Positions 2,440 through 24,773 of a DNA stretch of 64,000 nt are shown in pieces. Position numbers and translations under genes: made by a program. Source of the stretch: a marine gamma proteobacterium HTCC2080. Lineage in GTDB: Bacteria > Pseudomonadota > Gammaproteobacteria > Pseudomonadales > Halieaceae. Positions within the stretch are counted from its first letter, which is position 1. Every line of letters starts with the position of its first letter. The notes beneath the pieces are model-generated. The model was not told the DNA's origin. It was given only the letters and a program-made list of their open reading frames with translations, and did no database searches. The stretch is taken from contig AAVV01000001.1 of assembly GCA_000169115.1 (NCBI GenBank), positions 1 through 64,000 on the forward strand, read 5' to 3'.

Positions 2440-2490
2440 CTCGAAGCCTTTTTCGTGTTACCGCTACGCAAGGGTGTATCGGTCACTGAA

Positions 2491-5100: not shown

Positions 5101-5159
5101 CTGCGGTACTTACGGTGACCCCTATGCCACCCTGACTTGGCCAGTGACACCCTGAGGCT

Positions 5160-8100: not shown

Positions 8101-8783
8101 ATGTCTTCATCTAGAAAATCGTCAAGAAAATGCCGGGTGGTTTGTGCATCGCTTGGTCGTTCCAACCAGGTTGCAATACGACCTAGGGTCACGTCTGGGT
8201 GCTTCAAAAATTCGTCATAGCTCACCACAAAGCTATCGGGGTCAGTATCGGTCAGTAGTTGCGACCAATAGGCCTGAGTGAGCCCCAGGCCTATTGAGAG
8301 TGGTAAGTCGTTGCGCTGCTGCAGTGACGCTGCCACATCAAGCGGGTCTCTAAAGACCAGGCAGAGTCGCAGTGGGATATTAAGAGATTCGGCAACAGCC
8401 CGCCAAAAAGGAAGCAGCAGGCAAAGTCGGGGGTCTTTTATGGCCAGTCTGGGTTCGCGGGCGAGTTTGGCGGTGAGAAGTTTAACGCCGGCGTCTAAGT
8501 GTGTCGCATCCCAACTGAGTGGTCCCTGTCCCACAAACACCGGTGCATCCCAGTAGGAGCCGTTATCGCGCAGCAAGTTGTCGTTAAGATTGACGATATC
8601 TAGATCTTCAAAAAACCCCTTTGGGTTGTCGCTGCTGGGCGCCATGAGGGTCTCGCCAAGCCCATAACCGAAGCATTCGAAGCACTTGGTCACCAAGCTG
8701 GTGCCACTGCGGTGCATGCCACAAATTAGCAACAGTTCCTGTTGGTGCTTAGGCTTAAGTGAGTTCACGGTTACGTTGATCAA
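5160..8783 (-). CDS. Sulfotransferase / coiled-coil / GT2 / GT4 multidomain fusion
   Basis: 1207 residues with four parts. (1) About 15-230: a sulfotransferase-like domain with LLLICGMHRSGTSL, the 5'-phosphosulfate loop, and later AIKDPRLCLLLPFW and VFRDPLDVAAS for the 3'-phosphate. (2) About 275-425: a Gln/Glu-rich coiled coil with TNDLRSVSNDLENTQNDL-type repeats. (3) About 565-820: a GT2 domain with VSIVIPVYNEW, ADDCSTDE and LLLNNDTAVTAGW. (4) About 870-1195: a GT4-like domain ending in GFNHPPNIDAAQWLV, LRFGAGVKGKVLEAI. Such chains modify and extend surface polysaccharide from one polypeptide; sulfation plus two glycosyl transfers is inferred, not shown. The start is uncertain: TTG at 8783 gives the full length, GTG at 8768 is the alternative, and neither has a clear ribosome-binding site. 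Confidence 0.85.
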   Translation of the reverse strand: MINVTVNSLKPKHQQELLLICGMHRSGTSLVTKCFECFGYGLGETLMAPSSDNPKGFFEDLDIVNLNDNLLRDNGSYWDAPVFVGQGPLSWDATHLDAGVKLLTAKLAREPRLAIKDPRLCLLLPFWRAVAESLNIPLRLCLVFRDPLDVAASLQQRNDLPLSIGLGLTQAYWSQLLTDTDPDSFVVSYDEFLKHPDVTLGRIATWLERPSDAQTTRHFLDDFLDEDMQHHAHRLENLQETTATSPALAGASQALAQRSNDQSVAGRAWDIGAELEIGAFSELLAFQLSDRLAQLHATNEEAARLQQQNAQHGFDLEDLSNQKAEREAHIDLLIERQAEIHSELVVSQSVVEKGTLALEAEKSTSQQLADSLSTEVAEKAVLARQLERTESDLENTTNDLRSVSNDLENTQNDLVAMEGKANWLFALLKIDYGRLLQYDASFLGRIHRLSRRCYRLLTLQRGRGTAYDDALAAAATFFSDHNLTTPKPAPRKRQQVLAMARYTLKHPVSSVRSMSLPRVRKIFKTITSTEAQDLETWVAARFPEAEDISTVVEVAPAPDAPLIFPASKKPVVSIVIPVYNEWVITHRCLWSILQHTEGEYEVIVADDCSTDETVNIATYVQGVHVVRHAENQRFLRNCNIAAAQARGEFILLLNNDTAVTAGWLPPLLALFENESVGIVGPKLLFPNGKLQEAGGIIWNDASGWNYGRADEPSRPQYNYVRETDYVSGAALMIRQSLWQAVDGFDEAFVPAYYEDTDLCFTARQAGFKVLYQPASTVVHYEGMSNGTDLETGQKQYQVINQQRFYDKWLPVLTAENFANGEHVPCARGKTKGQRAVLVVDHYVPHYDKDAGSKSTWMYLKQMVAMGYRVAFMGANFFPHQPYTHELQQLGVEVVVGEAVAQRLDAWLAENLPYFDHIFMHRPHVAEQFLPTLKKHACCPKISYVGHDLHFLRTQREFLLKGDPALEREAAAWRERERAVIETTDNTLYFSDTEVAEVEQLVPSAHVNSIPLFILEDLKLEHVITDVTSLIFVAGFNHPPNIDAAQWLVGEILPLVLAARPDVHLNIVGSNPSSEVLALANDKIEVHGYVTESRLQELYAQAQCAVVPLRFGAGVKGKVLEAIQMGVPMVTTQIGAEGIPSADHVMAIADEPEMFAQAVIQQLDQTAENSSTRESWIAAHFSPAAASLALESIMGLAAKALDTTRDSA

Positions 8784-9155: not shown

Positions 9156-10256
9156 GTGAGAGAGCCTTCAGTATTAAGAGCCTGGGTATCTGCGCAATTA
9201 GTTCAAATGTCACAGCCTTCGCTGATTAATAGCAGCCAACCCTCGACGACTAAACTGCCAGAGCAAGACTTCAGCCTTGATTTAATTGCTGGAGATGCCA
9301 GTCCCCGCAAGTATTACCGGGTGGTAATGGGTCCAAAAGCCACAACACCTGCGCGAAGTTTAATCGCGGTAGACGCGCCAAGCTCGGAGAAGACCCCTGA
9401 ATTTCTTCATGTTCGACGGCTGCTAGAGGATGCGTTTCTTCGTGTGCCCGCCCTAATCGCCGCAGATGCCGAGGCGGGTTTCCTGCTACTGGAAGATCTT
9501 GGCGATGAGGTGTTGTTACCGGTTTTGAGTGATCATTCCGCGGGTGCCTGGTATGCCATGGCCCTCAATATGGCGGGTCTACTAGCCGCAATACCCAGCG
9601 CTACGACAGGGCTGGCAGCTTACGACGCCTCCAAGCTTCAGCAAGAGTTAGATTTGTTCCGAGATTGGTTTGTGCCCAAGCTGCTCGGTGTAGCCTGGAC
9701 GAATGAGCTGGAGCGGTGTTTTGGCGATCTCTCTGAGAGCCTCATTGATAACGCAATTCGACAACCCCAAGTGGTGGTACATCGCGATTTTCACAGCCGA
9801 AACCTAATGGTAGTCCGCAATGGGGAGCTTGCTGTTATCGATTTTCAGGATGCGGTAATGGGGCCCATCACTTACGATCCTGTGTCTCTACTCAAAGACT
9901 GTTACGTGCATTGGCCTAGGCAGCAGCAGCTGGCTTGGTTGCTTGATCACAAGCGGCTTATGACTGAGCAAGGGCGACTTGAACCTGTAGACGATGCCAC
10001 GTTTGTGGTTTGGTTTGATCTCATGGGTATGCAGCGCCACATTAAAGTGCTGGGTATCTTCGCCCGGCTCTTCTTGCGAGATGGCAAGCCCGGCTATCTT
10101 AATGATTTGCCCCTTGTTCTGGCTTACGTGTTACAGGTGACAGCCATTTATGCACCGTCAATGGATTCAGTGGCGGATTTCCAAAATCTCCTCACCCAGC
10201 AGATCGTTCCGGTTTGTCAAAAGCAAGCTTGGTACCGCTCGGTGACATTAACGTGA
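9156..10256 (+). CDS. amgK: N-acetylmuramate/N-acetylglucosamine kinase AmgK
   Basis: 366 residues, aminoglycoside-phosphotransferase fold. AmgK phosphorylates MurNAc (and GlcNAc) at C1 with ATP in the cytoplasm, feeding recovered cell-wall sugar back to UDP-MurNAc. Visible motifs: AGDASPRKYYRV near the N-terminus, LLLEDLGDEVLL (hinge), the catalytic loop HRDFHSRNL (about residue 209) and the metal-binding IDFQDA (about 228). The GTG at 9156 is chosen because it keeps the helix LRAWVSAQL, which relatives also have; ATG at 9207 would drop it. Its TGA overlaps the murU GTG start, the usual amgK-murU pairing. Confidence 0.88.
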   Translation: MREPSVLRAWVSAQLVQMSQPSLINSSQPSTTKLPEQDFSLDLIAGDASPRKYYRVVMGPKATTPARSLIAVDAPSSEKTPEFLHVRRLLEDAFLRVPALIAADAEAGFLLLEDLGDEVLLPVLSDHSAGAWYAMALNMAGLLAAIPSATTGLAAYDASKLQQELDLFRDWFVPKLLGVAWTNELERCFGDLSESLIDNAIRQPQVVVHRDFHSRNLMVVRNGELAVIDFQDAVMGPITYDPVSLLKDCYVHWPRQQQLAWLLDHKRLMTEQGRLEPVDDATFVVWFDLMGMQRHIKVLGIFARLFLRDGKPGYLNDLPLVLAYVLQVTAIYAPSMDSVADFQNLLTQQIVPVCQKQAWYRSVTLT

Positions 10257-10924
10257 AGGCTATGATACTGGCGGCGGGCATGGGGCGCCGCATGCTGCCG
10301 TTAACACAGGACACTCCCAAGCCGCTGCTGAAAGTGGCGGGCCAGTCGCTGCTGGAACACCATATTGTCAATTTAAAGACCGCGGGAATTACAGAGCTGG
10401 TTATCAATGCGGCGTATTTAGCGGACCAAATTGTGGACTTCTGTGGTGATGGCAGCCGCTGGGGTTTAAATATCCACGTGTCGGTTGAGTCAGAGCCTTT
10501 GGAGACTGCGGGGGGCATTATTAAAGCGCTGCCCGTCTTAGGTGACAGCCCCTTCCTCGTTGTTAACGGCGATATTTGGTGTCCTTACCCTTTTGAGCGG
10601 TTGATTAATGCTGCACCTCGCGCCACGGACGCGCATTTAGTGCTGGTGCCTAATCCACCCCATCATGCTGATGGCGATTTTAGTCTGGAACATGGGTGCC
10701 TTCTCCCCAAAGGTCAAATCTCCTTCACCTTTAGTGGTATTGCGGTTTATCGCCCGCAGTTCTTTCTGGGTCTCTCGCCCGTCAAACAGCCGCTCAAGCC
10801 GCTTTTAGATGCGGCGATCACAGCCAGTCAAGTTTCTGGCGAAGTCCATGTTGGCCCCTGGGTCGATGTGGGCACACCCGAGCGTCTGCAAGCTGTAGAT
10901 GAGGCCTGTAGGACGGCCTGGTAA
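10253..10924 (+). CDS. murU: N-acetylmuramate-1-phosphate uridylyltransferase MurU
   Basis: 223 residues from the GTG at 10253, which overlaps the amgK stop as GTGA. It joins MurNAc-1-phosphate and UTP to make UDP-MurNAc, bypassing de novo synthesis and the fosfomycin-sensitive MurA step. The nucleotidyltransferase signature is at the N-terminus: AMILAAGMGRRMLPLT then TPKPLLKVAG; VVNGDIWCPYPF carries the metal-binding Asp; WVDVGTPERL closes the fold. The length matches MurU rather than the longer GlmU/RmlA families. An upstream in-frame start at 10214 lies inside amgK and is not needed. Confidence 0.9.
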   Translation: MKAMILAAGMGRRMLPLTQDTPKPLLKVAGQSLLEHHIVNLKTAGITELVINAAYLADQIVDFCGDGSRWGLNIHVSVESEPLETAGGIIKALPVLGDSPFLVVNGDIWCPYPFERLINAAPRATDAHLVLVPNPPHHADGDFSLEHGCLLPKGQISFTFSGIAVYRPQFFLGLSPVKQPLKPLLDAAITASQVSGEVHVGPWVDVGTPERLQAVDEACRTAW

Positions 10925-11527: not shown

Positions 11528-14500
11528 ATGAGACGCACACCAATTAAGAAACCTCTAGAGCTACCCCGGTTTGGCAAAGACGCCGTCACAATCAACGGCG
11601 TAATGCAGGCGTTTGCATGTTTGGTGGGGGCCTGCCTTCTAGCTTTTGGCGTTCCAGCCCAAGCCAACCCTAATGCCCCATTACTCGACAATACGCCGGT
11701 CAAGCGAACGCTGGCCGTGTCTGATTACGACTCTGTTGCAGGCCTGTCAGCCATTGAGGCGGATATAGACATCACTCAAAGCGAGATTCAAATTACCGAG
11801 GTCTATATTGGCCTGCAAGGAAGAGCCCCCGATCCCGGAGGGTTAGCCTACTGGGTAAACCAGCTTGACTCTGCAATCGCTGCAGGACAAGCCCGAAGTT
11901 TAGCGCTGAAGAAGCTGACGAACGATATTACGCTGAGTGAGGAGTGGTATTCGGGCATAGGCGCGAATGACGGGCTCACGCAATCAGGTGCCGAGGCGAT
12001 AGTCAGGGCTATGTACCTCAACCTCTTTGACCGACCAGCAACGGCCTCCGATGTGGCTTACTGGTCCGCTGACCTTACAACGGGTCGCGTTACCGAGTCA
12101 GAGATGGTGGTGTTGTTGATCTTGGGAGCGCAGTCCAAAGGCAACGCAGATAGTCAGGTGCTTGAGTTTAAGCGCCAAGCCGCCAGCTACTATTCGAGCA
12201 ACATTACGTCAGCGTCATTCATGAGAGAAGGTGCCACCGAAGCGGTCGCTGGTGTAACTGACGAGCAATCACTGCTGGCTTCAGTTGATTTTACTGATCA
12301 GCAATCACTTCTGGAATCGGCCGCTTGTGGATCCACTGCCAAGGCGTGCTATATCAGCGACGTTGAGCCCGTAGTCCAGCAGAGGTGCGTGGTCTGTCAT
12401 CAGCAAGGCTTAACCGCAGATCAGCAAGGTGCACGGCTGCTTTTTACCGACGATGCGGCCACCAATCACGCCGCCCTCGAGACCTTTGTAACCACCGACG
12501 GTGTGGGTGCCGATTGGTTGTTGGGCAAGATTGTCGGCGATTTGGGGCATGGCGGCGGTCCGGTATTGGTGCAGGGTAGCAATAGCTACTTTGCGTTTGC
12601 TGACTACCTCACCCTGCTTGTCGGAGCAAATACTGGTGGCGGTAGTGTTGAAGCCAGCTCGATTTGGTCGGGCACCGTGATGGAAAGTCCGGAAACAACT
12701 CTGCGCCGGGCGGGTATCCTTCTGGCAGGAAAGGTCCCCAGTGCTGCTGCAATCCGGCGTGCACAATCGCTCAAGCACGGGCTAAAGAGCGAATTGATTG
12801 CCCTAATGGAAGGTGAGGGCTTCCACGATTTCCTTACCACTGGAGCCAACGATAGGTTGTTAACAAATGGGCTGAATAATGGCATCGACTTCCAGTTTAA
12901 TACTTGGCGCTTTCCCACTTTCCAGCAGTTTGAGCGCAGCCTCCCCGAAGATCGCCCAGAGGAGTTTAATACTGAAGAATATTGGGACCGGCCTTTTCTG
13001 GATCGAGGAAGTGCAAATGGAGAGTTTAGGCAGGCATTGATCCGCGAGCCCCTTGAGCTGATTGCTTACATCGTTGAAAACGACCGATCCTATAAAGAAG
13101 TTGTGACCGCAGACTACACTATGGTCAACCAATTCTCGGCCATGGCTTATCGAGCAGATGTGACTTTTGATGAGCCCATGTATGACGATGATGGCTTCTA
13201 CGATCGATCGCGCTTAAACACCTTCAAGCCCGCAAAAAATAGCGGGCACATTCCCTCTATTAATGACAACGTTGTCGACCAAGACGCGGGGATCTATTCG
13301 ATCGCGGAGTACCACGATTGGCCCCATGCTGGGGTGTTGAGCACACCGGCCTGGCTTTCTCGGTACCCCTCTACCGATACGAATCGTAATCGCGCCCGAG
13401 CTCGCTGGACCTATTACCAGTTCCTGGGTGTGGACATTGAAAAATCGGCGCCCAGAACCACCGACCCTGTGGCATTAGCAGACACTAACAACCCCACCAT
13501 GAACAACCCAGCCTGCACGGTTTGTCATGAACGCATGGATCCCGTGGCGGGTGCTTATCAAAGCTTTGGTGATGGTGGCAACTATCTTGATCAATGGGGC
13601 GGGCTAGACTCCCTTCCTGACGGTTACAAACGACCTCAAACAGCCGCTGGAGACTTACACCAACTGGAGCATCTGGTTCCCAAAGAAGATACTCAGGTCC
13701 ATCAGATTTCAAAGGCGGTAACAACACGAGAAGGAGGAACATTCACCGTTAGTAATCCAGACCCTTGCATCCAAGACGAGCAAAATAGTACCGACGAGGA
13801 ATGGGTTGGCTGGTGCACTAATTTAGCTGTTGCAGACATTACTGTTTACGCCGACGGTTCTGAGGTACTGAAGCTAAGGGCCTCAGAGTTTGACAGATAT
13901 CTCGGCTTCACGATCTCTACTGGTGCAGATTCCGAAACAGGTGAGCGGTACAACCATGGGAATCTGAATTGGAACGGCGATCTTTATAATCTTTGGAATT
14001 ACTCTTGGATGGCTTTTGAATTGCCGCTGGACGAGGGTGATTACGAAGTGGTGGTGACGCTAGCAACAAGCCAACAGGAGGGGTATCCCGAAGACTTTGT
14101 CGTGGCAGGATTGCGATGGGCGGAGGGCCTAACATCGGCCGATACTTATCAATATGGTGATACCTGGTACCGTGATATGCGCAGCCCGGGTTTCAATGGC
14201 CAGGCGGCTACTAATGACAAAGATAGCCTTCAGTGGTTAGGGCAAAAAATTGCCGAAGACCCCAGGTTTTCAGAAGCCACGGTCAAGTTTTGGTGGCCCT
14301 CGGTATTTGGCAGTGAGGTGCTTGTGGCGCCAGTGGATCGAAGCCTGCCCCATTATGAGTCGCAGTTGCTGGCATTCAACGCTCAGGAAGCTCTGGTCGA
14401 TGAATTGGCGACAGCCTTTGCCGCTGGCGACTTTAACGTGAAGAGTCTTCTTGCCGATATGATGCTCTCCCCTTGGTTCCGCACCACTGCGATTGTGGGC

Positions 14501-15685
14501 AGCCTGTCAGAAACTCAGAAAACCGTTTTAGAGACGGTGGGTCGTGGCCGGCAGCTCACCCCCGAAGAGCTTGATCGGAAAAATCGCGCGGTTTTTGGCC
14601 GAACCTGGGGACAGCGGTCGGGTGATCAAGCACACGAATATAGACCGCAAACCAACTTCACAGGGCGGGGGAGTTATGCTGCCTTTTACGGGGGCATCGA
14701 TGGTGCATCGATAACGAAAAGGAATCGTGAACAGACGCCATTAATGTCAAATGTCATTGAGAGAATGGCCATAGATCTGGCTTGTCAGGCTGTCGTGGAC
14801 GATTTCTCCAAACCCCGTGAGCAGCGAATTATTTTCACTGAAATTCCGCGGTTGTCGGCCGCAGACTTACTGCTGGACGACTCCTTCGAGCTGCTAGGGC
14901 AGGTCCCCGTCACTGATCAATGGCCCGGTAACTGGATGGACCATCCGGTTGTGTCGGGGGTTGTCACGCTGGTTGGGGGGCAGACGGCACTCCGTATCTC
15001 TGATTTCACTCGCGACTCCTATCGCAGCATTGACGGTGAGCCCTCGAATGCGGACCTCATCATTCAACAGATTATCCTTCGGAGAATCTCTTCCGGCGAG
15101 AGTCTAGTAATTGATGGTGTGAATTTGCCGGAGATGACTGACGTTGTGTTTGATACTTACATCGACCATCAAGGCCAGGAGCGTCTCCGTGGTGACGTTA
15201 TCGATGCTGCGGGAGGCTTCTGGTTGCACGAAAATGCTTGGGTTGAACTCCTGCTGAACCTTCCTGCCGGTGAGTACGAGATTGATCTAACCCTTGCCAC
15301 GTCCTTGACTGAAAATCATGTTAACGAGGCTATGACGGTCGGTGTAACGGCACTGGCGATCGATAGCGGTGGGGACACCACGACAAGTCAGCAAATTAGA
15401 CGGCAAATGACACAGTTGTTGCACAATGCGACGACCCGCAAGCCCAGTGAGGCCGAGATTGACACACTCGTTGAAGCCCTAACCAACCACGCAGATTTGG
15501 CGAAGGGCTGGGGCAGTGACTTTAACAATGTTGAGGGCGGCTGCGACAATTGGCAAATCTGGCCTGACCAACAGCCATCAGCTGGGAAACAGCAACTCAG
15601 GTTCGAGGACGGGGATGGCATGATGCGGGCCTGGACGATGATTTTACATTCCTTAATGACCAGCTACCTCTATCTGCACGATTGA
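11528..15685 (+). CDS. Exported DUF4214 + DUF1592/DUF1588-like protein with two heme c motifs (cassette copy 1)
   Basis: 1385 residues. A signal peptide ends near residue 46 (FGVPAQA-NP). Residues about 85-215 form a DUF4214-like pair of repeats (YIGLQGRAPDPGGLAYW, YLNLFDRPATASDVAYW). A c-type heme site CVVCH is at 287-291 in a short cytochrome-like domain, and CTVCHERMDP at 663-667 sits in a DUF1588-like region; ENDRSYKEVVTADYTMVN is the DUF1592-like hallmark. Residues about 736-864 form a beta-rich module with two cysteines, and a degenerate cysteine-free relative lies near 1142-1280. It probably acts in the periplasm or at the cell surface, with heme for redox or electron transfer; substrate unknown. 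The stop is 13 bp before its DUF1501 partner, so the two form an operon. It is paralogous to 17425-21048. Confidence 0.8.
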   Translation: MRRTPIKKPLELPRFGKDAVTINGVMQAFACLVGACLLAFGVPAQANPNAPLLDNTPVKRTLAVSDYDSVAGLSAIEADIDITQSEIQITEVYIGLQGRAPDPGGLAYWVNQLDSAIAAGQARSLALKKLTNDITLSEEWYSGIGANDGLTQSGAEAIVRAMYLNLFDRPATASDVAYWSADLTTGRVTESEMVVLLILGAQSKGNADSQVLEFKRQAASYYSSNITSASFMREGATEAVAGVTDEQSLLASVDFTDQQSLLESAACGSTAKACYISDVEPVVQQRCVVCHQQGLTADQQGARLLFTDDAATNHAALETFVTTDGVGADWLLGKIVGDLGHGGGPVLVQGSNSYFAFADYLTLLVGANTGGGSVEASSIWSGTVMESPETTLRRAGILLAGKVPSAAAIRRAQSLKHGLKSELIALMEGEGFHDFLTTGANDRLLTNGLNNGIDFQFNTWRFPTFQQFERSLPEDRPEEFNTEEYWDRPFLDRGSANGEFRQALIREPLELIAYIVENDRSYKEVVTADYTMVNQFSAMAYRADVTFDEPMYDDDGFYDRSRLNTFKPAKNSGHIPSINDNVVDQDAGIYSIAEYHDWPHAGVLSTPAWLSRYPSTDTNRNRARARWTYYQFLGVDIEKSAPRTTDPVALADTNNPTMNNPACTVCHERMDPVAGAYQSFGDGGNYLDQWGGLDSLPDGYKRPQTAAGDLHQLEHLVPKEDTQVHQISKAVTTREGGTFTVSNPDPCIQDEQNSTDEEWVGWCTNLAVADITVYADGSEVLKLRASEFDRYLGFTISTGADSETGERYNHGNLNWNGDLYNLWNYSWMAFELPLDEGDYEVVVTLATSQQEGYPEDFVVAGLRWAEGLTSADTYQYGDTWYRDMRSPGFNGQAATNDKDSLQWLGQKIAEDPRFSEATVKFWWPSVFGSEVLVAPVDRSLPHYESQLLAFNAQEALVDELATAFAAGDFNVKSLLADMMLSPWFRTTAIVGSLSETQKTVLETVGRGRQLTPEELDRKNRAVFGRTWGQRSGDQAHEYRPQTNFTGRGSYAAFYGGIDGASITKRNREQTPLMSNVIERMAIDLACQAVVDDFSKPREQRIIFTEIPRLSAADLLLDDSFELLGQVPVTDQWPGNWMDHPVVSGVVTLVGGQTALRISDFTRDSYRSIDGEPSNADLIIQQIILRRISSGESLVIDGVNLPEMTDVVFDTYIDHQGQERLRGDVIDAAGGFWLHENAWVELLLNLPAGEYEIDLTLATSLTENHVNEAMTVGVTALAIDSGGDTTTSQQIRRQMTQLLHNATTRKPSEAEIDTLVEALTNHADLAKGWGSDFNNVEGGCDNWQIWPDQQPSAGKQQLRFEDGDGMMRAWTMILHSLMTSYLYLHD

Positions 15686-15698
15686 AGGGTGACGAAAA

Positions 15699-17045
15699 AT
15701 GCTTAAGCGTAAAACTGTAGCGACCAGCCGAAGAAGCTTTGTTAAATCCATGGCGCTAGGCGCCGGTGCTTTGGCGAGTACCACAGGCTTTAGAGTGATG
15801 GCGTCGGGTTTAACCCCGTACGCGGGGAAGTTGTTGGTGACCCTGGAGCTCAACGGCGGCGCTGATGCGACGCAGCTGTGTGACCCCAAAGTTAACACGC
15901 CCGGGGAGCTGAAAATTAACAACTGGGCCGATACGGCCGACCCCGGACAAGCTGGAAATATCTTATTTGCCCCCGTGGCCGATAATTTCAATTTCTTCAA
16001 CCGTTTTGGTGCCGACATGGTGGTGGTGAACGGGGTAGATGCCCAAACCAACTCCCACGAGACGGGCCGGCTTTTCAATTGGACGGGCAGCAATGCTGAA
16101 GGGCGACCCTCATTGTCAGCACTACATGCTGCAGCGAATTCACCTGACCAGCCCTTGGCGTACTCAGTTTATGGTGGCAATACCACCCGAACAGCGGGCC
16201 TGCTGTCTTATAACCGCTTTGATGACATAAGCATGCTGCGTAGCCTGGCGACGCCTCACCGTAATTGGTGGGGGGACGGAAGCTTCGCGCGTCCGGAGCC
16301 AGAAATTTTAGAGGCGCAGCGACTCACTAAGGAGTCTGTCTCAGTGCTTTTGGCCTCTGCTGACCTTTCGCCCCGTCAGCGTAAGAGTCTTACCACTTTT
16401 CAGTCTGCGCGAGCAGACCGCGAAGGTTTGGAAAGGCTAGCGGAGTTTTTGCCAAACCAAGATGAGCTCCAACAACGTGATGAGTTTCTGGCCGGCGACG
16501 ACATGTTTGGGTCAAATTTAAAGCAGCAAATGCAAGCGGCCCTGACCGTCATGCAGTCTGGTCTGGGCTCTAGTGCTGACTTAAGTTTGGGTGGATTCGA
16601 TTCTCACGAAAACCACGACGCTATCCATGACGCGCTTTATACCCACCTCGCCGATGCCATTACGTTCTTTTGGGATTACGCTGAAAAGCTGGGCTTGGCC
16701 GATCGAATTTTGCTGGTTGTGGGTTCGGATTTTGGCCGCACCAACATGTACAACGACGGCAATGGTAAAGACCACTGGCCCATTGGCTCTTACATGCTTA
16801 TGGAGCAGGGAGCCCGGTGGGGTAATCGCGTTGTGGGGGCGTCCGACGCGTTACATTTTCCCCGTAAAATCAACCCCAATTCCTTGGATGTCTCAGACGG
16901 CGGTATCATTGTCACGCCAGCCCACGTTCACCGCGCCGTGCAAAAGTATTTAGGTATCGATGATTTCGCCACACAAAAAGGCGTTGCTATTCAAAACGTG
17001 GAAGATATCCCCCTGTTCTCAGCCAGTTTGCAGACTGGGGTATGA
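15699..17045 (+). CDS. Tat-exported DUF1501 family protein (cassette copy 1)
   Basis: 448 residues. The N-terminus has a twin-arginine signal TSRRSFVKSMALG, so it is exported folded, probably with bound metal. DUF1501 belongs to the alkaline-phosphatase-like fold; matching features are ELNGGADATQLCDP near the N-terminus, HETGRLFNWTG, LGGFDSHENHD, VVGSDFGRTN and GKDHWPIGSYML, which carry Asp/His residues suited to metal binding. The enzymatic reaction of the family is not established. It directly follows the two-heme protein, a pairing (large cytochrome-domain protein plus DUF1501) well known in Planctomycetes and also found in marine Proteobacteria. Same length as the second copy at 21063-22409, with long identical stretches. 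Confidence 0.88.
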   Translation: MLKRKTVATSRRSFVKSMALGAGALASTTGFRVMASGLTPYAGKLLVTLELNGGADATQLCDPKVNTPGELKINNWADTADPGQAGNILFAPVADNFNFFNRFGADMVVVNGVDAQTNSHETGRLFNWTGSNAEGRPSLSALHAAANSPDQPLAYSVYGGNTTRTAGLLSYNRFDDISMLRSLATPHRNWWGDGSFARPEPEILEAQRLTKESVSVLLASADLSPRQRKSLTTFQSARADREGLERLAEFLPNQDELQQRDEFLAGDDMFGSNLKQQMQAALTVMQSGLGSSADLSLGGFDSHENHDAIHDALYTHLADAITFFWDYAEKLGLADRILLVVGSDFGRTNMYNDGNGKDHWPIGSYMLMEQGARWGNRVVGASDALHFPRKINPNSLDVSDGGIIVTPAHVHRAVQKYLGIDDFATQKGVAIQNVEDIPLFSASLQTGV

Positions 17046-17072
17046 AAACGAGGTGCTAGTTCAATGGCGTTG

Positions 17073-17102
17073 GCCCGCACTACCGGCTTCGGTGGTGCGG
17101 GC
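17073..17102 (+). terminator. Hairpin after the first DUF1501 gene, probable terminator
   Basis: A 13-bp stem (GCCCGCACTACCG pairing with CGGTGGTGCGGGC, one G-U wobble) closes a GCTT loop, 27 bp after the stop codon. No true T-run follows (TTGGCC), so it may act as a factor-dependent terminator or an mRNA 3'-end stabiliser. Confidence 0.6.
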
Positions 17103-17278
17103 TTGGCCAAACTTGTGATCCCGTTGCCCAAGAGCGTCGGATAAGCTAACGAGCCCCGTTAGTGGGGTGGCGTCGATCTCGGCTCTGGCGACCCCTGTTG
17201 CTTAGCAAGCCCACCTAATACATCGCGATGCCCCTAGTAGATTTTATTATTTGAAATCTGTAGCACTTTTTGTAAACT

Positions 17279-17311
17279 TTGACAGCGTGCGTAAAGCTGG
17301 CGGTGTATAAC
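17279..17311 (+). promoter_or_regulatory. Candidate promoter for cassette copy 2
   Basis: A perfect TTGACA (17279-17284) is followed by TATAAC (17306-17311). The 21-bp spacing is longer than the 16-18 bp sigma70 optimum, so this is only a candidate. It lies about 110 bp before the copy-2 start codon, in AT-rich DNA. Confidence 0.3.
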
Positions 17312-17424
17312 AGCTCAAAACAAAAGGCAACGAAAGCGGATAGGACGCCTTCGCCCAAAAACTCACGATTAGTTAAGGCACTAGCCAATCAAGAGCGTTA
17401 AAACGCTAGAGACTTTAAGTGTTT

Positions 17425-20400
17425 ATGAATTGCCTAACCGATAAGCAACACCGCTTCGCCCGCAAGCCTGCTGATGACAGTGGGTTTTTCACCAAGCTTG
17501 CGATCGCGTTGAGACTTCTCACTGTAATTCTTGCAATGGCACCTTTGGCTACGGTGAATGCCAATCCTCATGCCGCGTTTAGCGGTTTACTGGATACCGT
17601 GAGCGAAGTACGAGCAGGCTCCGAGATAGAGTCAGGCGATGGCGCCTCAGCGGAAGCTTGCGATACCTCTGCCAAGGCTTGCTATATCAGCGACGTGGAT
17701 CCTGTGGTGCAACAAAGTTGTGTGGTTTGTCATCAGGAAGGTTTGACCGCAGACCAGCAGGGTGCTCGGCTGCTGTTTACTGACGACGCATCGTCAAATC
17801 ACTCGGCCATGGAAGCGTTTGTGACCACCGATGGTGTAGGAGCTGACTGGTTACTCGATAAAATTGTGGGCGATCGTAGCCACGGCGGAGGGCCGGTGCT
17901 AACGCGAGGCAGTGGCGATTATCTGGCATTTGCGGATTACCTTACTTTACTCGTAGGCGCCAACACTGATGACGGTAGTGTCGATGCCAGTGCAATTTGG
18001 TCGGGCACTACAATCGAGAGCCGTGAAGCTACCTTGCGCCGAGCGGCGATTCTTCTGGCAGGGAATGTGCCCACAAACGCGGCGCTGGAGCGTGTTACAG
18101 CCTCTGATGAAGCCCTTAAGTGGGATTTAAAGCGGCTCATGAGTGGCGACGGTTTTCATAATTTTTTGGTGACCGCTGCCAACGATCGTTTGCTTACAGA
18201 CGGGCTCAACAATGGTATTGATTGGCAGTTTGATTTTCGTTGGCGGTTTCCCGCTTATTATGCCTTTGAGCGCAATCTCCCCGAGAGCATGCCAGAGGAG
18301 TTAGACACTGAGGAATACTGGGGAAAACCATTCCTCTCTCAAAACGACGCTAACATTGAACTTCGCATCGCTACCATCAGGGAGCCGGTAGAGCTCATTG
18401 CACACATTGTGGAAAACGATCGCTCCTATAAAGAGGTAGTAACCGCCGACTACACTATGGTGAACCAATTTACTGCAATGGCTTATCAGGCCGATGTGGA
18501 TTTTGATAACCCTATTACCGATGACAATGGCTTTTATAATCGAAGGCATCTCAACACATTCAAGCCTGCAAAGAATGTCGGTCATATTCCGTTCACAAAT
18601 GAGAACAACTTCGATCAGGAGTCTGGCGAATACACCGTTACCGAATACCACGAGTGGCCACACTCGGGCGTTCTAACCATGCCCGCGTGGTTGGGGCGCT
18701 ATCCTTCCACCGATACCAATCGCAATCGGGCTCGTGCTCGATGGACGTACTATCATTTTCTGGGTGTCGATATTGAAAAATCTGCCCCGAGGTCGACAGA
18801 CCCGGTTGCCCTAGCCGATACCAATAACCCCACCATGAACAACCCAGCTTGTACCGTATGTCACGAGCGGATGGATCCGGTGGCGGGTGCTTATCAGAGT
18901 TTTGGTGACCAGGGTCATTACCTTAATCAGCATGGTGGTTTGGATTCTTTGCCCGATTTTTATAAGAACCCACAAAGGGCAGACGGTGATCTTTATGAGC
19001 TACCCCATGATTCAGAAACGAACTTGGGGCGCTATGAATTTCATGAGGTGTCTCAGGTAGTAACGACAGTAAAAGGAGGCAGTTTTTCGATTAGTAACCC
19101 AGATTCCTGTATCGAGGATGTCGAAAGAAGTAGCCAGGAGGAATGGTTTGGGTGGTGCAGCCGGCTGGGTGTTTCCGATATTACCGTCTATGAAAACGGC
19201 TCACAGATTCTAAAGCTTCAGGCTCAGGAGTTTGAGGGTTATGCGGGCTTCTCTACCTCTACTTACACTGATTCCGAGACCGGTGAACAGCGGCCACAAG
19301 GTGACCTAAACGGTAACGTCTATCAGCTTCACTATGACGTCTGGATGGCCTTTGATTTTGACCTGCCCGAGGGCGATTATGAAATCGTCGTTACGCTTGC
19401 AACGCAACAAGATGAGGGATACCCCGAGCCCTTTGTGCTGGCAGGGTTGCTTTGGAGCGAGGGCCTTACCACAGGAACAAAGTATCAATACGGAGATACT
19501 TGGTACCGCGATATGCGAGCGCCCGGGTTTAATAGTAAGGCGTACAGAGGTGGGGAAGACAGTATTCAATGGCTAGGGCAGCAGATCGCCGAGGATCCTC
19601 GATTCCCCAGAGCTACGGTCAAATTTTGGTGGCCTTCGGTATTTGGCGCAGAGGTCCTTGCCGCGCCAGCTGATCGAAATCTCCCAGACTATGATGCACA
19701 GCTTTTGGCCTTTAATGCGCAAGAGAAGCTAGTCGATGAGTTGGCCGCAGCTTTTGTCGCGAGTGGCTACAAACTGAAGAGTCTTCTTGCCGAGATGGTG
19801 GTATCTCCTTGGTTCCGTACGACCGAAGTCAATCAAGAGCTGTCTGAGACGCAGCAAAAAGCGTTAATAACCGTGGGTCGAGGACGATTACTGACCCCAG
19901 AAGAGCTTGATCGTAAAAATAGAGCCGTTTTTGGTCGCACTTGGGGCGAAAGTTGGCAGGAAGATGGATATAGCTACAATAAACTGACCAACTTTTCATC
20001 TGCGTGGAGTGGCTACGCATCTTTTTATGGCGGAATTGATAGCGCGGCGGTAACTAAGCGTAACCGCGAAAAGACGCCACTCATGTCAAACGTAAGCGAG
20101 AAAATGGCGGTCGAGTTGGCCTGCCAGGTTGTTTTGGAGGATTTCGCTCGGCCGCAGGCAGAAAGAAGGGTCTTCACTGAAGTTGAAAAGACGACAAACC
20201 CTATGAGTCGAGGTGGGAGCACTTATTCTTTGGAGCACAGTAATCCGTCGGAAATCAAAAACGGTTTCTCACGTCAGGTTTATGAGTGGAGTATTGACTT
20301 TGACGTGGGAGATGGAGCTGTGGCTATTACGTTACAAGATCAAACCAACCCAGGTTGTGTGCAAGACGAAGAAAATAGTACGGAAGACGAGTGGCGGGGA

Positions 20401-21048
20401 TGGTGTAGAAATGTAGGGGTGTCCAGCGTTGATGTTTACAAATCTGGCCGCTTAGTAAAATCCTTGAGTGCCGATGAGTTTGAGAACAGTGATGTCTTCG
20501 TGCCACAAATGTGGACCGATAATGAGACCGGAGAAACGAATCGATCGGGTTGGTTTGAAGCCATTGATAGCGGCAAGACCAGCTTTTACCCGTGGAGTGG
20601 ATGGGGCTTTACCCTCAATTTTGATTTGAGCAAGGGTGATTACGAACTTAAAGTTGAGCTCGTATCGAGAGTTGATGATGGATATCCTGATTTTGACGCG
20701 CTAACAGCTGAGGCTTCTATCGTGTCTCGCAGCTTTGACGCTTCGAGTGCTAGTGCGCGTGCGGTAGGTCATCAGCTTGATGCTCTGTACCTGCGGGCCA
20801 CCGGCAATGTACTTAGTGATGAGGTTAGAAATCGCCTGCTCGAAGCTTTTGTAGATTATGCGAGCACTACAGTTAGCGAAGATGGCACTTGGTTTAACGG
20901 GCATTGTGCTGACTACCAAATTTGGGATACCTCACTGATAACCAATGAAGATAGACAGCGTATCAAGAGTGATTCTGTGGGCAGTTTACGGGCATGGACC
21001 TTAATGGTGCATGCCTTAATGACCAGCTATTCCTACTTACACGATTGA
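17425..21048 (+). CDS. Exported DUF1592/DUF1588-like protein with two heme c motifs (cassette copy 2)
   Basis: 1207 residues from the ATG at 17425; a GTG two codons upstream (17419) is possible. A long basic n-region precedes a hydrophobic stretch ending ATVNA-NP, a probable secretion signal. Heme motifs CVVCH (99-103) and CTVCHERMDP (476-480) match copy 1, as do the VVTADYTMVN and WYRDMRAPGF regions. Copy 2 lacks the DUF4214-like N-terminal domain. It carries the two-cysteine beta module twice: about residues 550-676 (NPDSCIEDVER, WFGWCSR) and about 966-1096 (NPGCVQDEEN, WRGWCRN). The C-terminus MTSYSYLHD equals that of copy 1. It is followed after 14 bp by its DUF1501 partner. Role unknown; a secreted heme protein acting with DUF1501 is inferred. 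Confidence 0.8.
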   Translation: MNCLTDKQHRFARKPADDSGFFTKLAIALRLLTVILAMAPLATVNANPHAAFSGLLDTVSEVRAGSEIESGDGASAEACDTSAKACYISDVDPVVQQSCVVCHQEGLTADQQGARLLFTDDASSNHSAMEAFVTTDGVGADWLLDKIVGDRSHGGGPVLTRGSGDYLAFADYLTLLVGANTDDGSVDASAIWSGTTIESREATLRRAAILLAGNVPTNAALERVTASDEALKWDLKRLMSGDGFHNFLVTAANDRLLTDGLNNGIDWQFDFRWRFPAYYAFERNLPESMPEELDTEEYWGKPFLSQNDANIELRIATIREPVELIAHIVENDRSYKEVVTADYTMVNQFTAMAYQADVDFDNPITDDNGFYNRRHLNTFKPAKNVGHIPFTNENNFDQESGEYTVTEYHEWPHSGVLTMPAWLGRYPSTDTNRNRARARWTYYHFLGVDIEKSAPRSTDPVALADTNNPTMNNPACTVCHERMDPVAGAYQSFGDQGHYLNQHGGLDSLPDFYKNPQRADGDLYELPHDSETNLGRYEFHEVSQVVTTVKGGSFSISNPDSCIEDVERSSQEEWFGWCSRLGVSDITVYENGSQILKLQAQEFEGYAGFSTSTYTDSETGEQRPQGDLNGNVYQLHYDVWMAFDFDLPEGDYEIVVTLATQQDEGYPEPFVLAGLLWSEGLTTGTKYQYGDTWYRDMRAPGFNSKAYRGGEDSIQWLGQQIAEDPRFPRATVKFWWPSVFGAEVLAAPADRNLPDYDAQLLAFNAQEKLVDELAAAFVASGYKLKSLLAEMVVSPWFRTTEVNQELSETQQKALITVGRGRLLTPEELDRKNRAVFGRTWGESWQEDGYSYNKLTNFSSAWSGYASFYGGIDSAAVTKRNREKTPLMSNVSEKMAVELACQVVLEDFARPQAERRVFTEVEKTTNPMSRGGSTYSLEHSNPSEIKNGFSRQVYEWSIDFDVGDGAVAITLQDQTNPGCVQDEENSTEDEWRGWCRNVGVSSVDVYKSGRLVKSLSADEFENSDVFVPQMWTDNETGETNRSGWFEAIDSGKTSFYPWSGWGFTLNFDLSKGDYELKVELVSRVDDGYPDFDALTAEASIVSRSFDASSASARAVGHQLDALYLRATGNVLSDEVRNRLLEAFVDYASTTVSEDGTWFNGHCADYQIWDTSLITNEDRQRIKSDSVGSLRAWTLMVHALMTSYSYLHD

Positions 21049-21062
21049 GCGAGTGAAAAGAG

Positions 21063-22409
21063 ATGCCTAATCGTAAAACGATATCAACCAACCGAAGACG
21101 CTTTATAAAGTCTATGGCGTTGGGCGCAGGGGCGTTAGCGAGTACCACCGGTTTTCGCGTGATGGGTTCGGGCTTAGCGCCTTACTCGGGTAAGTTGCTG
21201 GTAACTCTGCAGCTTAGCGGCGGAGCCGATGTTACCCAGTTGTGTGACCCAAAAGTTAACACACCAGGGGAATTAAAAATTAATCACTGGGCCGATGTCG
21301 CAGAGCCTGGCGAGGCCGGTAATATTCGATTTGCCCCGGTGGGTGATAATTTTAATTTTTTTAACCGTTTTGGTGCAGATATGGTGGTGGTCAATGGAGT
21401 TGACGCCCAAACAAATTCACACGAAACCGGGCGTCTTTTCAATTGGACCGGCAGCAACGCCGAAGGGCGGCCCTCGCTGACGGCGTTACACGCGGCGGCC
21501 AATGCGCCAGAGCAACCTCTGGCCTATTCGGTATTTGGTGGAGGCACCTCAAGAACGTCGGGCATTATTTCTTATAACCGCTTTCGAGACGTTTCACGTT
21601 TACGTGAGCTGGCTAAACCTACAGAAATGCCATGGGACACATCAAATCAGCTTCGTCCTGACTTGGAGATTAGTGAGGCACGGCGGCTAACTCGAGAGTC
21701 GGTAACCGAACTCTTCACCTCGACAAACCTCACGCCGCGTCAGCGCCGCAGCGTCACCCGTTACAAGCAGGCTCTAGATGGGAAGGAAGGCCTATTGCGT
21801 CTTGCTGAGGGGCTGCCCTCTCCCGATGATTACGAGGGAGATGAAACGTTCCAGGTTGGCGACAACAATTTTTGGTCTAATTTGAAGCAGCAAATGCAAG
21901 GCGCACTGCTCGTGTTTCAGTCAGGTTTGGGTTCGAGTGCAGATATCGCTCTGGATGGTTTTGATTCTCATGAAAACCACGATGACATTCATGACGCGCT
22001 TTATACCCACTTGGCCGATGCTATTTATTATTTTTGGGATTACGCGGAGCAACTCGGGCTTGCTGATCGTATTTTGTTGGTGGTGGGCTCAGATTTCGGG
22101 CGCACCAACATGTATAACGATGGCAACGGCAAGGACCACTGGAACATTGGCTCTTACATGCTTATGGAGCAGGGGGCACGGTGGGGTAATCGTGTAGTTG
22201 GCGCCTCTGACGAGCTGCATTTTGCCAGAAAAATTAACCCTAGTTCTTTGGAAACGTCTGAAAGTGGCATAGTTCTCACGCCAGCTCATGTTCACCGAGC
22301 CGTGCAAAAATACTTAGGTATTGACGACTTCGCGGCTACGAATGGCATTGCCCTGCCGGATGTCGAAGATATTGCCTTGTTTTCCACGAGTAAGCAGACG
22401 CGGGTATAA
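21063..22409 (+). CDS. Tat-exported DUF1501 family protein (cassette copy 2)
   Basis: 448 residues, the paralog of 15699-17045 with identical length and most blocks shared: twin-arginine signal TNRRRFIKSMALG, HETGRLFNWTG, GFDSHENHDDIHD, VVGSDFGRTNMYNDG, GKDHWNIGSYML. The middle part (about residues 195-280, between the NRF and SNLKQQMQ segments) differs most from copy 1 and may hold substrate or partner specificity. It is exported folded through Tat and probably binds metal like other alkaline-phosphatase-fold proteins; the reaction is unknown. It ends the cassette; rpe starts 211 bp later with its own likely promoter. Confidence 0.88.
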   Translation: MPNRKTISTNRRRFIKSMALGAGALASTTGFRVMGSGLAPYSGKLLVTLQLSGGADVTQLCDPKVNTPGELKINHWADVAEPGEAGNIRFAPVGDNFNFFNRFGADMVVVNGVDAQTNSHETGRLFNWTGSNAEGRPSLTALHAAANAPEQPLAYSVFGGGTSRTSGIISYNRFRDVSRLRELAKPTEMPWDTSNQLRPDLEISEARRLTRESVTELFTSTNLTPRQRRSVTRYKQALDGKEGLLRLAEGLPSPDDYEGDETFQVGDNNFWSNLKQQMQGALLVFQSGLGSSADIALDGFDSHENHDDIHDALYTHLADAIYYFWDYAEQLGLADRILLVVGSDFGRTNMYNDGNGKDHWNIGSYMLMEQGARWGNRVVGASDELHFARKINPSSLETSESGIVLTPAHVHRAVQKYLGIDDFAATNGIALPDVEDIALFSTSKQTRV

Positions 22410-22620: not shown

Positions 22621-23295
22621 ATGACCGATTTCAAAATTGCCCCCTCAATACTTTCCGCAGACTTTGCCCGCCTTGGGGAAGAGGTCGACACGGTCTTGGC
22701 CGCCGGTGCTGACATTGTCCATTTCGATGTCATGGACAATCACTACGTACCTAACCTAACGATTGGCCCTATGGTTTGTCAGGCGTTACGCAACCATGGA
22801 GTAGTGGCGCCTATCGACGTTCACCTTATGGTGCAGCCTGTCGATAATCTGATTAGTATGTTTGCCGATGCTGGGGCCACGTACATTACGTTTCACCCTG
22901 ACGCTTCTACCCACGTTGATCGCTCTTTGCAGTTGATTCGCGGTGCAGGCTGCAAATCGGGTTTGGTTTTCAATCCTGCCGCCTCTTTGGAGGCGCTCAA
23001 ATACGTCATGGATAAAGTCGACATGATTTTACTCATGTCGGTTAACCCCGGTTTCGGCGGGCAAAAGTTCATTCCAGCCACCCTCGATAAACTCCGTGAG
23101 GTGCGCGCCCTTATTGATGCCAGTGGGCTGGATATTCGCCTTGAGGTCGATGGCGGTGTGGGGCCCGGTAATATCGCCGAGATTGCCGCGGCAGGTGCCG
23201 ATACGTTTGTCGCCGGATCGGCTATTTTTAATCAGCCCGATTATCGCGCGGTGATCGATGAAATGAGACGCGAGCTCGCCAGCGTACACTCATAA
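22621..23295 (+). CDS. rpe: Ribulose-phosphate 3-epimerase
   Basis: 224 residues, the full family length. It interconverts ribulose-5-phosphate and xylulose-5-phosphate in the pentose phosphate pathway. TIM-barrel signatures are intact: [17 protein letters not shown], the metal/catalytic [37 protein letters not shown] and EVDGGVG. The TAA stop overlaps the trpE ATG by one base. In Pseudomonas a phosphoglycolate phosphatase gene (gph) usually sits between rpe and trpE; here it is absent. Confidence 0.96.
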
Positions 23296-24773
23296 TGGAT
23301 CAAAAGACCTTTGATTACTGGGTAACTCAGGGTTACAACCGGATTCCTGTTTCCAAAACGATTCTTGCCGATGTAGAAACCCCGCTTTCTGCCTATATGA
23401 AACTGGCGGCCGGTCCCTACTCTTTCTTGTTTGAGTCGGTTCAGGGCGGTGAAAAATGGGGCCGTTATTCGATTATTGGATTACCTGCTCGTCATCGTAT
23501 TCGCGTACGAGGAAAACGAGTCTCCCTAGAGCGTGATGGGGTTGCCACGACGGTCGTTGAAAGTGAAGACCCCTTGGCCGAGGTTGAAGCACAGCACGCT
23601 AAGTTTCGAAGTGCGCCCATCGAGGGCTTGCCGGTCTTTCACGGTGGTTTAGTAGGCTATTTTGGTTATGACGTGGTGCGCTATGTGGAGGCAAAGCTTG
23701 AACAGCATGATCAAACTGATGCCCTGAACACTCCGGATATACTGTTGCTGGTGGCCGAGGAAGTTCTGGTTTTTGATAATCTGGCGGGCACGCTGACGAT
23801 GGTTGTCACTGCCAATGCAGAAGAGCCTGACGCCCGCGTGGCAGCGCTTGCACGGCTTGAAGTCCTTGAACATCAGCTGCCGCAGCCTGGCCCCTCACTT
23901 GAGCCTATCAGTCTTGACGGTGCTGGATTGGAGGCCATTGAGGCAACGGCTCGATACCATACCGATCCCTCGCAATTTATGGGGTGGGTCGAGATGATTC
24001 GAAAATCTATTCTTGATGGCGATGTCATGCAGGTCGTGCCTTCCCAGCGTATGACCGTTGATTTTAGAAGTGCCCCCATTTCGCTGTATCGTGCGCTGAG
24101 AAATTTGAACCCCTCGCCTTATATGTATTTTTTAGATATGGGCGATTTCCAAATTGTGGGCTCCTCTCCAGAAATACTGGTGCGCGCTGAGCAGGGCGAG
24201 GTTACGGTTAGACCTATTGCCGGCACTCGCAAGCGCGGTCAAAATCCGGAGGAGGATCAGGCCCTCGCTGAAGAGTTATTAGCAGACCCCAAGGAAATGG
24301 CTGAACACCTGATGTTGATTGATTTGGGGCGCAATGATTTGGGTCGCATCGCTCAACCCGGCACGGTTGAAGTCACTGAGTCCATGCTTATCGAGCGCTA
24401 CTCTCACGTCATGCATATCGTTTCTAATGTAAAAGGGCGGGCGCAAGCTGATTTAACGGCCATGGACGCCCTGCGGGCAACCTTGCCCGCGGGCACATTG
24501 AGTGGTGCGCCGAAGGTGATGGCAATGCAAATTATCGATCGTTTAGAGTCGGTTAAGCGCGGCGTATATGGTGGTGCAGTGGGCTATATTTCTTGGGCGG
24601 GTGACATGGATACCGCCATCGCTATCCGCACCGCAGTGATCAAAGATGATGAAGTTCACATTCAGGCAGGCGCTGGCATCGTCGCAGATTCTGTGCCGGC
24701 TCTGGAGTGGGAAGAGACAATGAATAAGGCTAGAGGTATGTTAAGAGCTGTAGCTATGGCGCAGCCCAAATGA
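23295..24773 (+). CDS. trpE: Anthranilate synthase component I
   Basis: 492 residues. With TrpG it converts chorismate and glutamine to anthranilate, the first step of tryptophan synthesis. The N-terminal segment FLFESVQGGEKWGRYSIIG contributes the tryptophan feedback site. The chorismate-binding half contains LNPSPYMYFLDMGDFQIVG, PIAGTRKRG, DLGRNDLGRIA, GTLSGAPKVMAM and AGAGIVADSVPALEW, all complete. There is no ribosome-binding site of its own: the start is coupled to the rpe stop (TAATG). The trpE stop overlaps the next gene (ATGA), which is not trpG but a glycan-type gene; trpG follows only at 31617. Confidence 0.96.
   Translation: MDQKTFDYWVTQGYNRIPVSKTILADVETPLSAYMKLAAGPYSFLFESVQGGEKWGRYSIIGLPARHRIRVRGKRVSLERDGVATTVVESEDPLAEVEAQHAKFRSAPIEGLPVFHGGLVGYFGYDVVRYVEAKLEQHDQTDALNTPDILLLVAEEVLVFDNLAGTLTMVVTANAEEPDARVAALARLEVLEHQLPQPGPSLEPISLDGAGLEAIEATARYHTDPSQFMGWVEMIRKSILDGDVMQVVPSQRMTVDFRSAPISLYRALRNLNPSPYMYFLDMGDFQIVGSSPEILVRAEQGEVTVRPIAGTRKRGQNPEEDQALAEELLADPKEMAEHLMLIDLGRNDLGRIAQPGTVEVTESMLIERYSHVMHIVSNVKGRAQADLTAMDALRATLPAGTLSGAPKVMAMQIIDRLESVKRGVYGGAVGYISWAGDMDTAIAIRTAVIKDDEVHIQAGAGIVADSVPALEWEETMNKARGMLRAVAMAQPK

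Follow-up and report, generated by a model that had tools for sequence, protein, structure and literature searches.

Tandem cassettes of a divergent PSCyt3 protein with CBM60-like modules and a twin-arginine DUF1501 protein in the marine gammaproteobacterium HTCC2080

Two tandem cassettes and the pairing of their genes

The stretch of DNA analysed in this work (hereafter the window) comprises 64,000 nucleotides at the start of contig 25 (AAVV01000001.1) of the marine gammaproteobacterium HTCC2080, whose genome of 3.58 Mb is available in 25 contigs and is 99.44% complete. Our analyses of the window concern two tandem cassettes, each of which consists of a gene for a large protein with two CxxCH motifs (L) and a gene for a twin-arginine protein of the family DUF1501 (D). 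The four genes are arranged in the order L1-D1-L2-D2 and span positions 11528-22409, all of them on the + strand, as are the features within them that are described below. L1 (11528..15685) starts with ATG and encodes 1385 amino acids (aa), and it is separated by 13 bp from D1 (15699..17045; 448 aa). L2 (17419..21048) encodes 1209 aa when it is read from a GTG codon; an in-frame ATG at 17425 may be its start instead. D2 (21063..22409), which also encodes 448 aa, follows L2 after 14 bp. The two L proteins share 57% identity over 1146 aligned columns and diverge strongly beyond L1 residue ~1100, and the two D proteins share 75% identity over 448 columns. Ten of the 11 families of direct repeats of at least 30 nt join cassette 1 to cassette 2 at a near-constant spacing of 5333-5364 bp, and the remaining family consists of one such cassette-to-cassette pair and a third copy; spacing of this regularity is explained by tandem duplication and not by chance. 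The original prediction, made from the letters of this DNA alone, had described two tandem cassettes at these positions, with 13 and 14 bp within them, the motifs CVVCH and CTVCH, and a 448-aa twin-arginine DUF1501 protein in each, and all of these features were confirmed.

The expectation that L and DUF1501 form a fixed pair was borne out by a co-occurrence analysis of 120 genomes of the family, in which L matches were found in 24 genomes and D matches in 20; the outcome that the original prediction had named as its refutation, homologs of L mostly lacking DUF1501 neighbours, did not occur. Four of the 24 genomes with L matches (viz. G094, G105, G107, and G110) hold only a small single-heme relative of L and were left out of the count of large L proteins. 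Large L loci number 26 in 20 family genomes, and at 25 of them a D gene lies on the same strand within 1 kb (23 downstream and 2 upstream); the 26th locus, which is without D, runs into a contig edge. Conversely, 25 of the 26 D matches are paired with L, and the remaining one starts at a contig edge. At three loci (L014:6215-9868, L012:5918-8966, and L083:1738-4047) homologs of L and/or D are split into two frames, due to sequencing error or decay.

This picture is extended by 276 sampled genomes of the class. They yielded 13 PSCyt3 matches in 10 genomes and DUF1501 matches in 53 genomes, and inspection of all 13 PSCyt3 loci (the window, L026, and L077-L086) revealed an adjacent twin-arginine partner at 12 of them. 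The partner is DUF1501 at seven loci (three in the genome of the window, L082, L083, L084, and L085; for L082 and L083 it was typed by the positions of the DUF1501 matches) and DUF1552 at five (L077-L081), and the 13th locus (L086) is a match below the cut-off in a frame of 204 residues. PSCyt3 proteins partnered with DUF1552 score 49-120 bits, those partnered with DUF1501 score 21-39 bits, and the L proteins of the window belong to the low-scoring group. Hence, in this sample the earlier statement that DUF1592/DUF1588-type proteins are accompanied by DUF1501 partners applies to the low-scoring PSCyt3 proteins, whereas the high-scoring ones adjoin DUF1552. The genome of the window contains a third, more distant L-D pair on contig 22, and a DUF1501 gene on contig 18 adjoins the gene for a large protein of 633 aa without CxxCH, which is presumably of the DUF1800 type.

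Domains and modules of the two proteins

The two L proteins match the Pfam model PSCyt3/DUF1588 with 27.5 and 27.8 bits (L1, 13328..13585; L2, 18664..18924), narrowly above the cut-off of 27. DUF1592, DUF1553, and DUF1800 match both proteins below the cut-off, DUF1585 matches L2 only (E 0.16), and no match to DUF1587 or DUF1595 was listed for either protein in the Pfam scan; the weak matches to DUF1800, DUF1553, and DUF1585 all fall on one identical part of L. The canonical set of DUF1587, DUF1595, DUF1592, and DUF1585 was thus not found above the Pfam cut-offs in L of the window, which we have therefore filed as a divergent branch and not as a canonical member. PSCyt3 is matched at E 0.01 or better in 28 of the 28 homologs in our alignment (A3), and the L family of the window aligns over 317 columns (E 1e-14) with a profile built from five canonical members of PSCyt3, the second CxxCH of L falling on the canonical PSCyt3 CxxCH. 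On the basis of these comparisons, L is assigned to the PSCyt3 (DUF1592-DUF1588) family of the planctomycete type, from whose canonical members it diverges; this supports the original prediction of DUF1592/DUF1588 membership in the form of a divergent branch. Of the individual Pfam domains proposed, DUF1588 is barely above its cut-off, DUF1592 remains below it, and DUF4214 is confined to L1. The latter domain matches in two stretches near the N-terminus of L1 (the best at residues 158-197, 11999..12118) but not in L2, and it is found in 1 of the 28 homologs.

The first heme c motif, CVVCH, starts at residue 287 of L1 (12386..12400) and residue 101 of L2 (17719..17733), and the second, CTVCH, at residue 663 of L1 (13514..13528) and residue 478 of L2 (18850..18864). 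Both motifs are kept at identities down to 31%, the second (C478, C481, and H482 of L2) in all 26 large homologs and the first in 24 of the 24-25 rows where it is covered, and the His of an HGGG motif (H155 of L2) is kept in 25 of 25 rows; two CxxCH motifs are present in most of the L proteins of Halieaceae. Covalent attachment of heme to these motifs is possible, as is export of D by the Tat route, since CcmF and TatC are present in the genome, and the N-terminus of L1, read by eye, is of the Sec type and would direct L to export by Sec. Several cassettes, though not those of the window, are accompanied by small proteins with a single CxxCH that cluster with L and that in some cases contain Big_7 or fn3 domains (L062:728-1633, L063:6159-8177, L012:4578-5549, L014:4463-5560, L073:5882-6883, and L074:10877-11881).

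The two D proteins were assigned by Pfam (DUF1501 at 79.3 and 76 bits, with a cut-off of 27). The closest named relatives of the window are metagenome-assembled genomes (MAGs) of Luminiphilus (Halieaceae) and of Halieaceae, with D2 sharing up to 94% identity over its full length. The twin-arginine motif is SRRSFVK in D1 (15726..15746) and NRRRFIK in D2 (21090..21110), and R11 and R12 are invariant in an alignment of 30 diverse DUF1501 members. In this alignment the residues D56, D301, H303, D344, D358, and H359 are also invariant. In D2 these are found in the motifs GGAD (D56; 21219..21230), GFDSH (D301 and H303; 21957..21971), SDFGRT (D344; 22089..22106), and KDHW (D358 and H359; 22131..22142), and D56, D301, H303, D358, and H359 are candidate metal ligands. 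A profile of diverse DUF1501 proteins has a single and weak match in the PDB (E 0.15), to ENPP7, in which SDFGRT aligns with the SDHG motif of this enzyme of the alkaline phosphatase superfamily; in contrast to the latter, the NSH of DUF1501 lacks a conserved Ser nucleophile. In Pfam, DUF1501 belongs to the clan of this superfamily. These observations are in keeping with a metal-dependent hydrolase of that superfamily but do not prove it. The DUF1501 profile is also related to a five-row profile of DUF1552, with 313 columns aligned, including the Tat signal, at a probability of 92.6 and E 4.4e-7.

A structure model of L2 (mean pLDDT 51) contains two confident jelly rolls with an identical order of strands, module A at residues ~524-680 and module B at ~930-1103 (model residue + 45). 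Their approximate limits in the DNA are 18988..19458 for module A and 20206..20727 for module B of L2, and 13652..14125 and 14840..15370 for the corresponding modules of L1, whose module B belongs to another clade than that of L2. Of the 26 large homologs, 16 have module B, nine lack it, and in one it is cut; module A is found in this set only in the two proteins of the window and, outside it, in L013 and partly in L005.

CBM60 is a calcium-dependent xylan-binding module. In a whole-protein Pfam scan it exceeded the cut-off in three of the 28 homologs (L066, L067, and L072), each time inside module B; none of the four modules of the window reached the cut-off for Pfam CBM60. When modules were scanned singly, four of 17 matched CBM60, the best at 6.9e-11 (only the first member being named). 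In profile comparisons by hhalign the two module types of the window (A7 and A8) match a CBM60-clade reference profile at 1.7e-13 and 3.6e-15, respectively, the reference consisting of four rows, in one of which (L076) the whole-protein scan detected no CBM60, and they match each other at 1.5e-25. A profile built from 17 modules has its best PDB match in the cellulase B module of 1uxz (E 0.028), a CBM6, and its next in an unrelated-looking chain (0.035). By sequence the modules of the window are homologous to the CBM60 modules that are recognised at the same place in the homologous proteins L066, L067, and L072. They differ from these in failing the CBM60 model and in that the DRNL stretch of such relatives is replaced, and they are referred to here as CBM60-like and not as CBM60. 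Binding of glycans by modules A and B is putative.

Duplication of the cassette and exchange of modules

The history of the cassettes was examined in a tree of 16 D proteins and a tree of 23 modules. In the D tree, a copy-1 group (D1 with L008 and L013) is sister to a copy-2 group (D2 with L005, L006, and L007) with support of 100/99, and L010, L009, and L060 split off before these two groups. Each of the latter three has one cassette, preceded by the same two upstream genes as in the window; in L009 and L060 this single cassette is followed by the same epimerase gene, and the L010 sequence ends in D. The D tree and these single-cassette relatives together indicate that an originally single cassette was doubled in the lineage leading to the window. 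In the module tree, the three A modules group together (96/94) and adjoin the L2-type B modules, all 11 being united with support of 100/99, from which it follows that module A is a copy derived from that B lineage. When the module tree is read literally, the copying of A predates the split of L058-L060, yet L058-L060 are without A; it must then be assumed that A was lost or that it changed faster once it had been copied.

The identities of the modules disagree with those of the surrounding protein. L1 and its counterpart L013 share 78-97% identity in segments over residues 266-1100 outside module A, whereas over module B their identity falls to 17-21%; module B of L1 instead shares 28-43% identity with L011, L012, and L061-L064. 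Module A of L1 shares 56% identity with L2 and 43% with L013, whereas the core beside it shares 66% with L2 and 83% with L013. These discordant values for A and B point to exchange or conversion of modules between paralogs, of which module B of L1 is the clearest case. L013 is cut at the region that corresponds to DUF4214 of L1, so that it does not date this region.

At L008:1486-2832, in a Luminiphilus MAG, a D of the copy-1 type is followed by other genes in place of a second cassette; either copy 1 is not tandem at that end or the MAG is mixed. An integrase gene (L063:14189-15163) lies near the cassette in genome G098 and relatives of it lie near the cassettes of L012, L014, and L062, which may bear on the mobility of the cassettes.

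The cassettes of the window are preceded by a gene pair for an APH-family kinase and an NTP-transferase (9156-10924), presumably amgK-murU, and followed by ribulose-phosphate epimerase and anthranilate synthase genes (22621-24773). Farther upstream are glycosyltransferase genes (1231-8783), and two of the upstream proteins, of 869 aa and 1207 aa, have relatives on the corresponding side of the cassette in L060. By eye, the 1207-aa protein appears sulfotransferase-like at its N-terminus; no such Pfam match was obtained at E 0.001. In a Halieaceae MAG, a TonB-dependent receptor gene follows the cassette (L011:5438-8635). The cassettes of other relatives have unrelated neighbour genes.

Distant homologs and possible functions of the pair

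Eight distant PSCyt3 proteins (L077-L082, L084, and L085; L083 was excluded) were scanned with Pfam. Three CBM2 modules are present in each of L079 and L080, L078 contains four CBM26 modules and a glucose/sorbosone-dehydrogenase (GSDH) domain, and L084 contains seven PA14 domains; in the other four scanned proteins no carbohydrate-binding module was listed. The L078 gene encodes a protein of 2232 aa and adjoins DUF1552 (L078:7462-14157). At three gammaproteobacterial loci (L079:5962-12617, L080:4241-10595, and L084:4600-16829) the gene immediately after DUF1552 or DUF1501 encodes a twin-arginine flavoprotein of the type of flavocytochrome c sulfide dehydrogenase (FCSD), and an FCSD-like cytochrome domain (3vrd at 1.3e-31 and 1.6e-25) forms part of the large protein in L079 and L080. 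If bound to cellulose, such a flavocytochrome would be a candidate for the bacterial equivalent of cellobiose dehydrogenase, which has so far been missing. Carbohydrate-binding modules in some PSCyt genes of Verrucomicrobia, with sulfatases nearby, are also described by He et al. (PMC5615132), where the PSCyt proteins are predicted to be periplasmic or cytoplasmic.

These proteins can be compared with Cbp2D of Cellvibrio japonicus, which is annotated with X183, DUF1587, and a C-terminal X132 domain of unknown function with its own CxxCH (Branch et al., PMC8981238), and which is, like Cbp2E, reported to be important for growth on insoluble cellulose (PMC12542752, PMC10916295), X183 domains being probable electron-transfer domains (PMC10916295). 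The three best PDB matches of a profile (A10) of five proteins, which spans the cytochrome domain, DUF1587, and the PSCyt3 core, are 8q1v (6.7e-13), 8q1w (9.8e-10), and 7b21 (2e-6); the last is named cbp2D (X183 domain), and the first two, named 'putative lipoprotein', are taken to be X183 domains of T. turnerae. In L079 and L080 the cytochrome domain is followed by DUF1587, DUF1595, DUF1592, DUF1588 with CxxCH, and DUF1585 up to the end of the protein, an order that agrees with X183, DUF1587, and a C-terminal CxxCH domain of the X132 type; L of the window has no DUF1587 match. Lengths also agree: Cbp2D has 1,122 residues and the construct used for X183 extends to base 1674 of cbp2D, so that ~564 residues remain, compared with ~521 in L079 and ~511 in L080 after the cytochrome domain. 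Domain order, CxxCH, length, and profile matches thus suggest that DUF1587-X132 of Cbp2D is probably the PSCyt3 core.

The L proteins of the window resemble Cbp2D and the X183 + X132 proteins TERTU_2913 and TERTU_3803 of Teredinibacter in being modular CxxCH proteins, putatively exported and linked to carbohydrates, with X132 probably corresponding to the PSCyt3 core by domain order and length; they differ in that those proteins have modules of their own (CBM2, X158, and X122), and the genome of the window has no LPMO_10. With planctomycete-type PSCyt3/PSD proteins (DUF1587-DUF1595-DUF1592-DUF1588-DUF1585) they share CxxCH, a core of DUF1592/DUF1588, and a twin-arginine partner encoded next to them. 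However, the partner of the latter is DUF1552, whereas that of L is DUF1501, L reaches only 27-28 bits for DUF1588 with the other core domains below threshold, and L has a C-terminal extension with CBM60-like modules. DUF1800-DUF1501 pairs have the same twin-arginine partner and L weakly matches DUF1800, but the 633-aa neighbour on contig 18, of presumed DUF1800 identity, is without CxxCH.

The reading that we favour, and to which we assign an even chance, is that L and D form an exported two-protein redox/hydrolase complex that acts on polysaccharide outside the cytoplasm; polysaccharides are favoured as the target by the modules of carbohydrate-binding type in close relatives and distant homologs. 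L would leave the cell by Sec, and the Ccm system would attach c-type heme to CVVCH, in a small N-terminal cytochrome-like domain, and to CTVCH, in the DUF1588 core. The CBM60-like jelly rolls would hold L on a sugar polymer, and D, a predicted metal-dependent protein resembling the alkaline phosphatase superfamily, would fold inside the cell, exit by Tat, and dock on L. Most likely, the L core would then oxidise the bound polymer or relay its oxidation, and D would act on ester or other substituents. The redox/hydrolase chemistry put forward in the original prediction is plausible on these grounds, and its suggestion that the cassettes serve two related substrates receives indirect support from the differing C-terminal module of copy 1, where a module B of another clade probably alters the binding target. 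Several observations weigh against this reading: LPMO_10 is absent from the genome, no glycoside hydrolase occurs among the nine flanking genes typed, and module B is missing in nine of the 26 large homologs. The genome has 12 sulfatase-family matches that are not tied to the cassettes, and use of sulfated polysaccharides by this bacterium is possible.

The same features can be explained in other ways. L could serve as an electron conduit that links an acceptor or donor outside with an extracellular enzyme or with the respiratory chain; D would then assist in maturation or docking, and sugar binding would serve only as an anchor. The two conserved CxxCH motifs, the conserved HGGG His, the FCSD-type flavoprotein after L079, L080, and L084, the FCSD-type cytochrome domain of L079 and L080, and the probable electron-transfer role described for X183 (PMC10916295) are consistent with such a conduit, but two CxxCH motifs in most Halieaceae L proteins are few for a long one, the invariant Asp/His set of D is enzyme-like, and no flavoprotein lies beside the few family cassettes typed; we consider it unlikely. 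Still less probable, in our estimation, is that the pair makes, modifies, or exports the surface polysaccharide of the bacterium itself, D editing substituents of a chain that L holds. The glycosyltransferase genes just upstream, the conserved side of two upstream genes in L060, and the co-location of DUF1800-DUF1501 pairs with bacterial chitin synthases (reported in PMC5122149) would suit such a role, whereas the unrelated neighbours of other relatives, the CBM2 and CBM26 modules fused to distant homologs, which by family name only suit a foreign cellulose- or starch-like polymer, and the link of Cbp2D to growth on cellulose (PMC12542752) argue for a foreign substrate. The least likely of these explanations, which we regard as improbable, is a purely hydrolytic pair in which heme on CxxCH is structural or absent, L is a scaffold, and D is the enzyme. 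D has invariant candidate metal ligands, and the contig-18 pair, in which the partner of presumed DUF1800 type has no CxxCH, indicates that a DUF1501 protein can be paired without heme; against this stand the almost full conservation of both CxxCH motifs in the L family and the redox partners and FCSD domains of distant homologs.

The L-D family itself was already known, though uncharacterised. The novelty lies in the finding that CBM60-like modules were duplicated within L and exchanged, against the background of a tandem duplication, and in the evidence that X132 is likely to be the PSCyt3 core. To the carbohydrate field, X132 has been an orphan domain with a heme motif, carried by a protein that matters for growth on cellulose. 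If it is the PSCyt3 core, the PSCyt family gains a knockout phenotype and X132 gains a regular partner gene (DUF1501 or DUF1552), and this likely identity makes the function testable. It is a tentative and rather doubtful extension of the favoured reading that the PSCyt3/X132 core and Tat-exported DUF1501/DUF1552 constitute one widespread, unrecognised machine for oxidative attack on polysaccharides, retargeted by the copying and exchange of modules and, in some lineages, handling electrons through an FCSD-like flavoprotein; if true, it would unite the planctomycete 'PSCyt' genes with the Cbp2D-type proteins. The window represents a natural experiment, in which tandem copies differ most in an exchanged, binding-like module and an extra N-terminal region.

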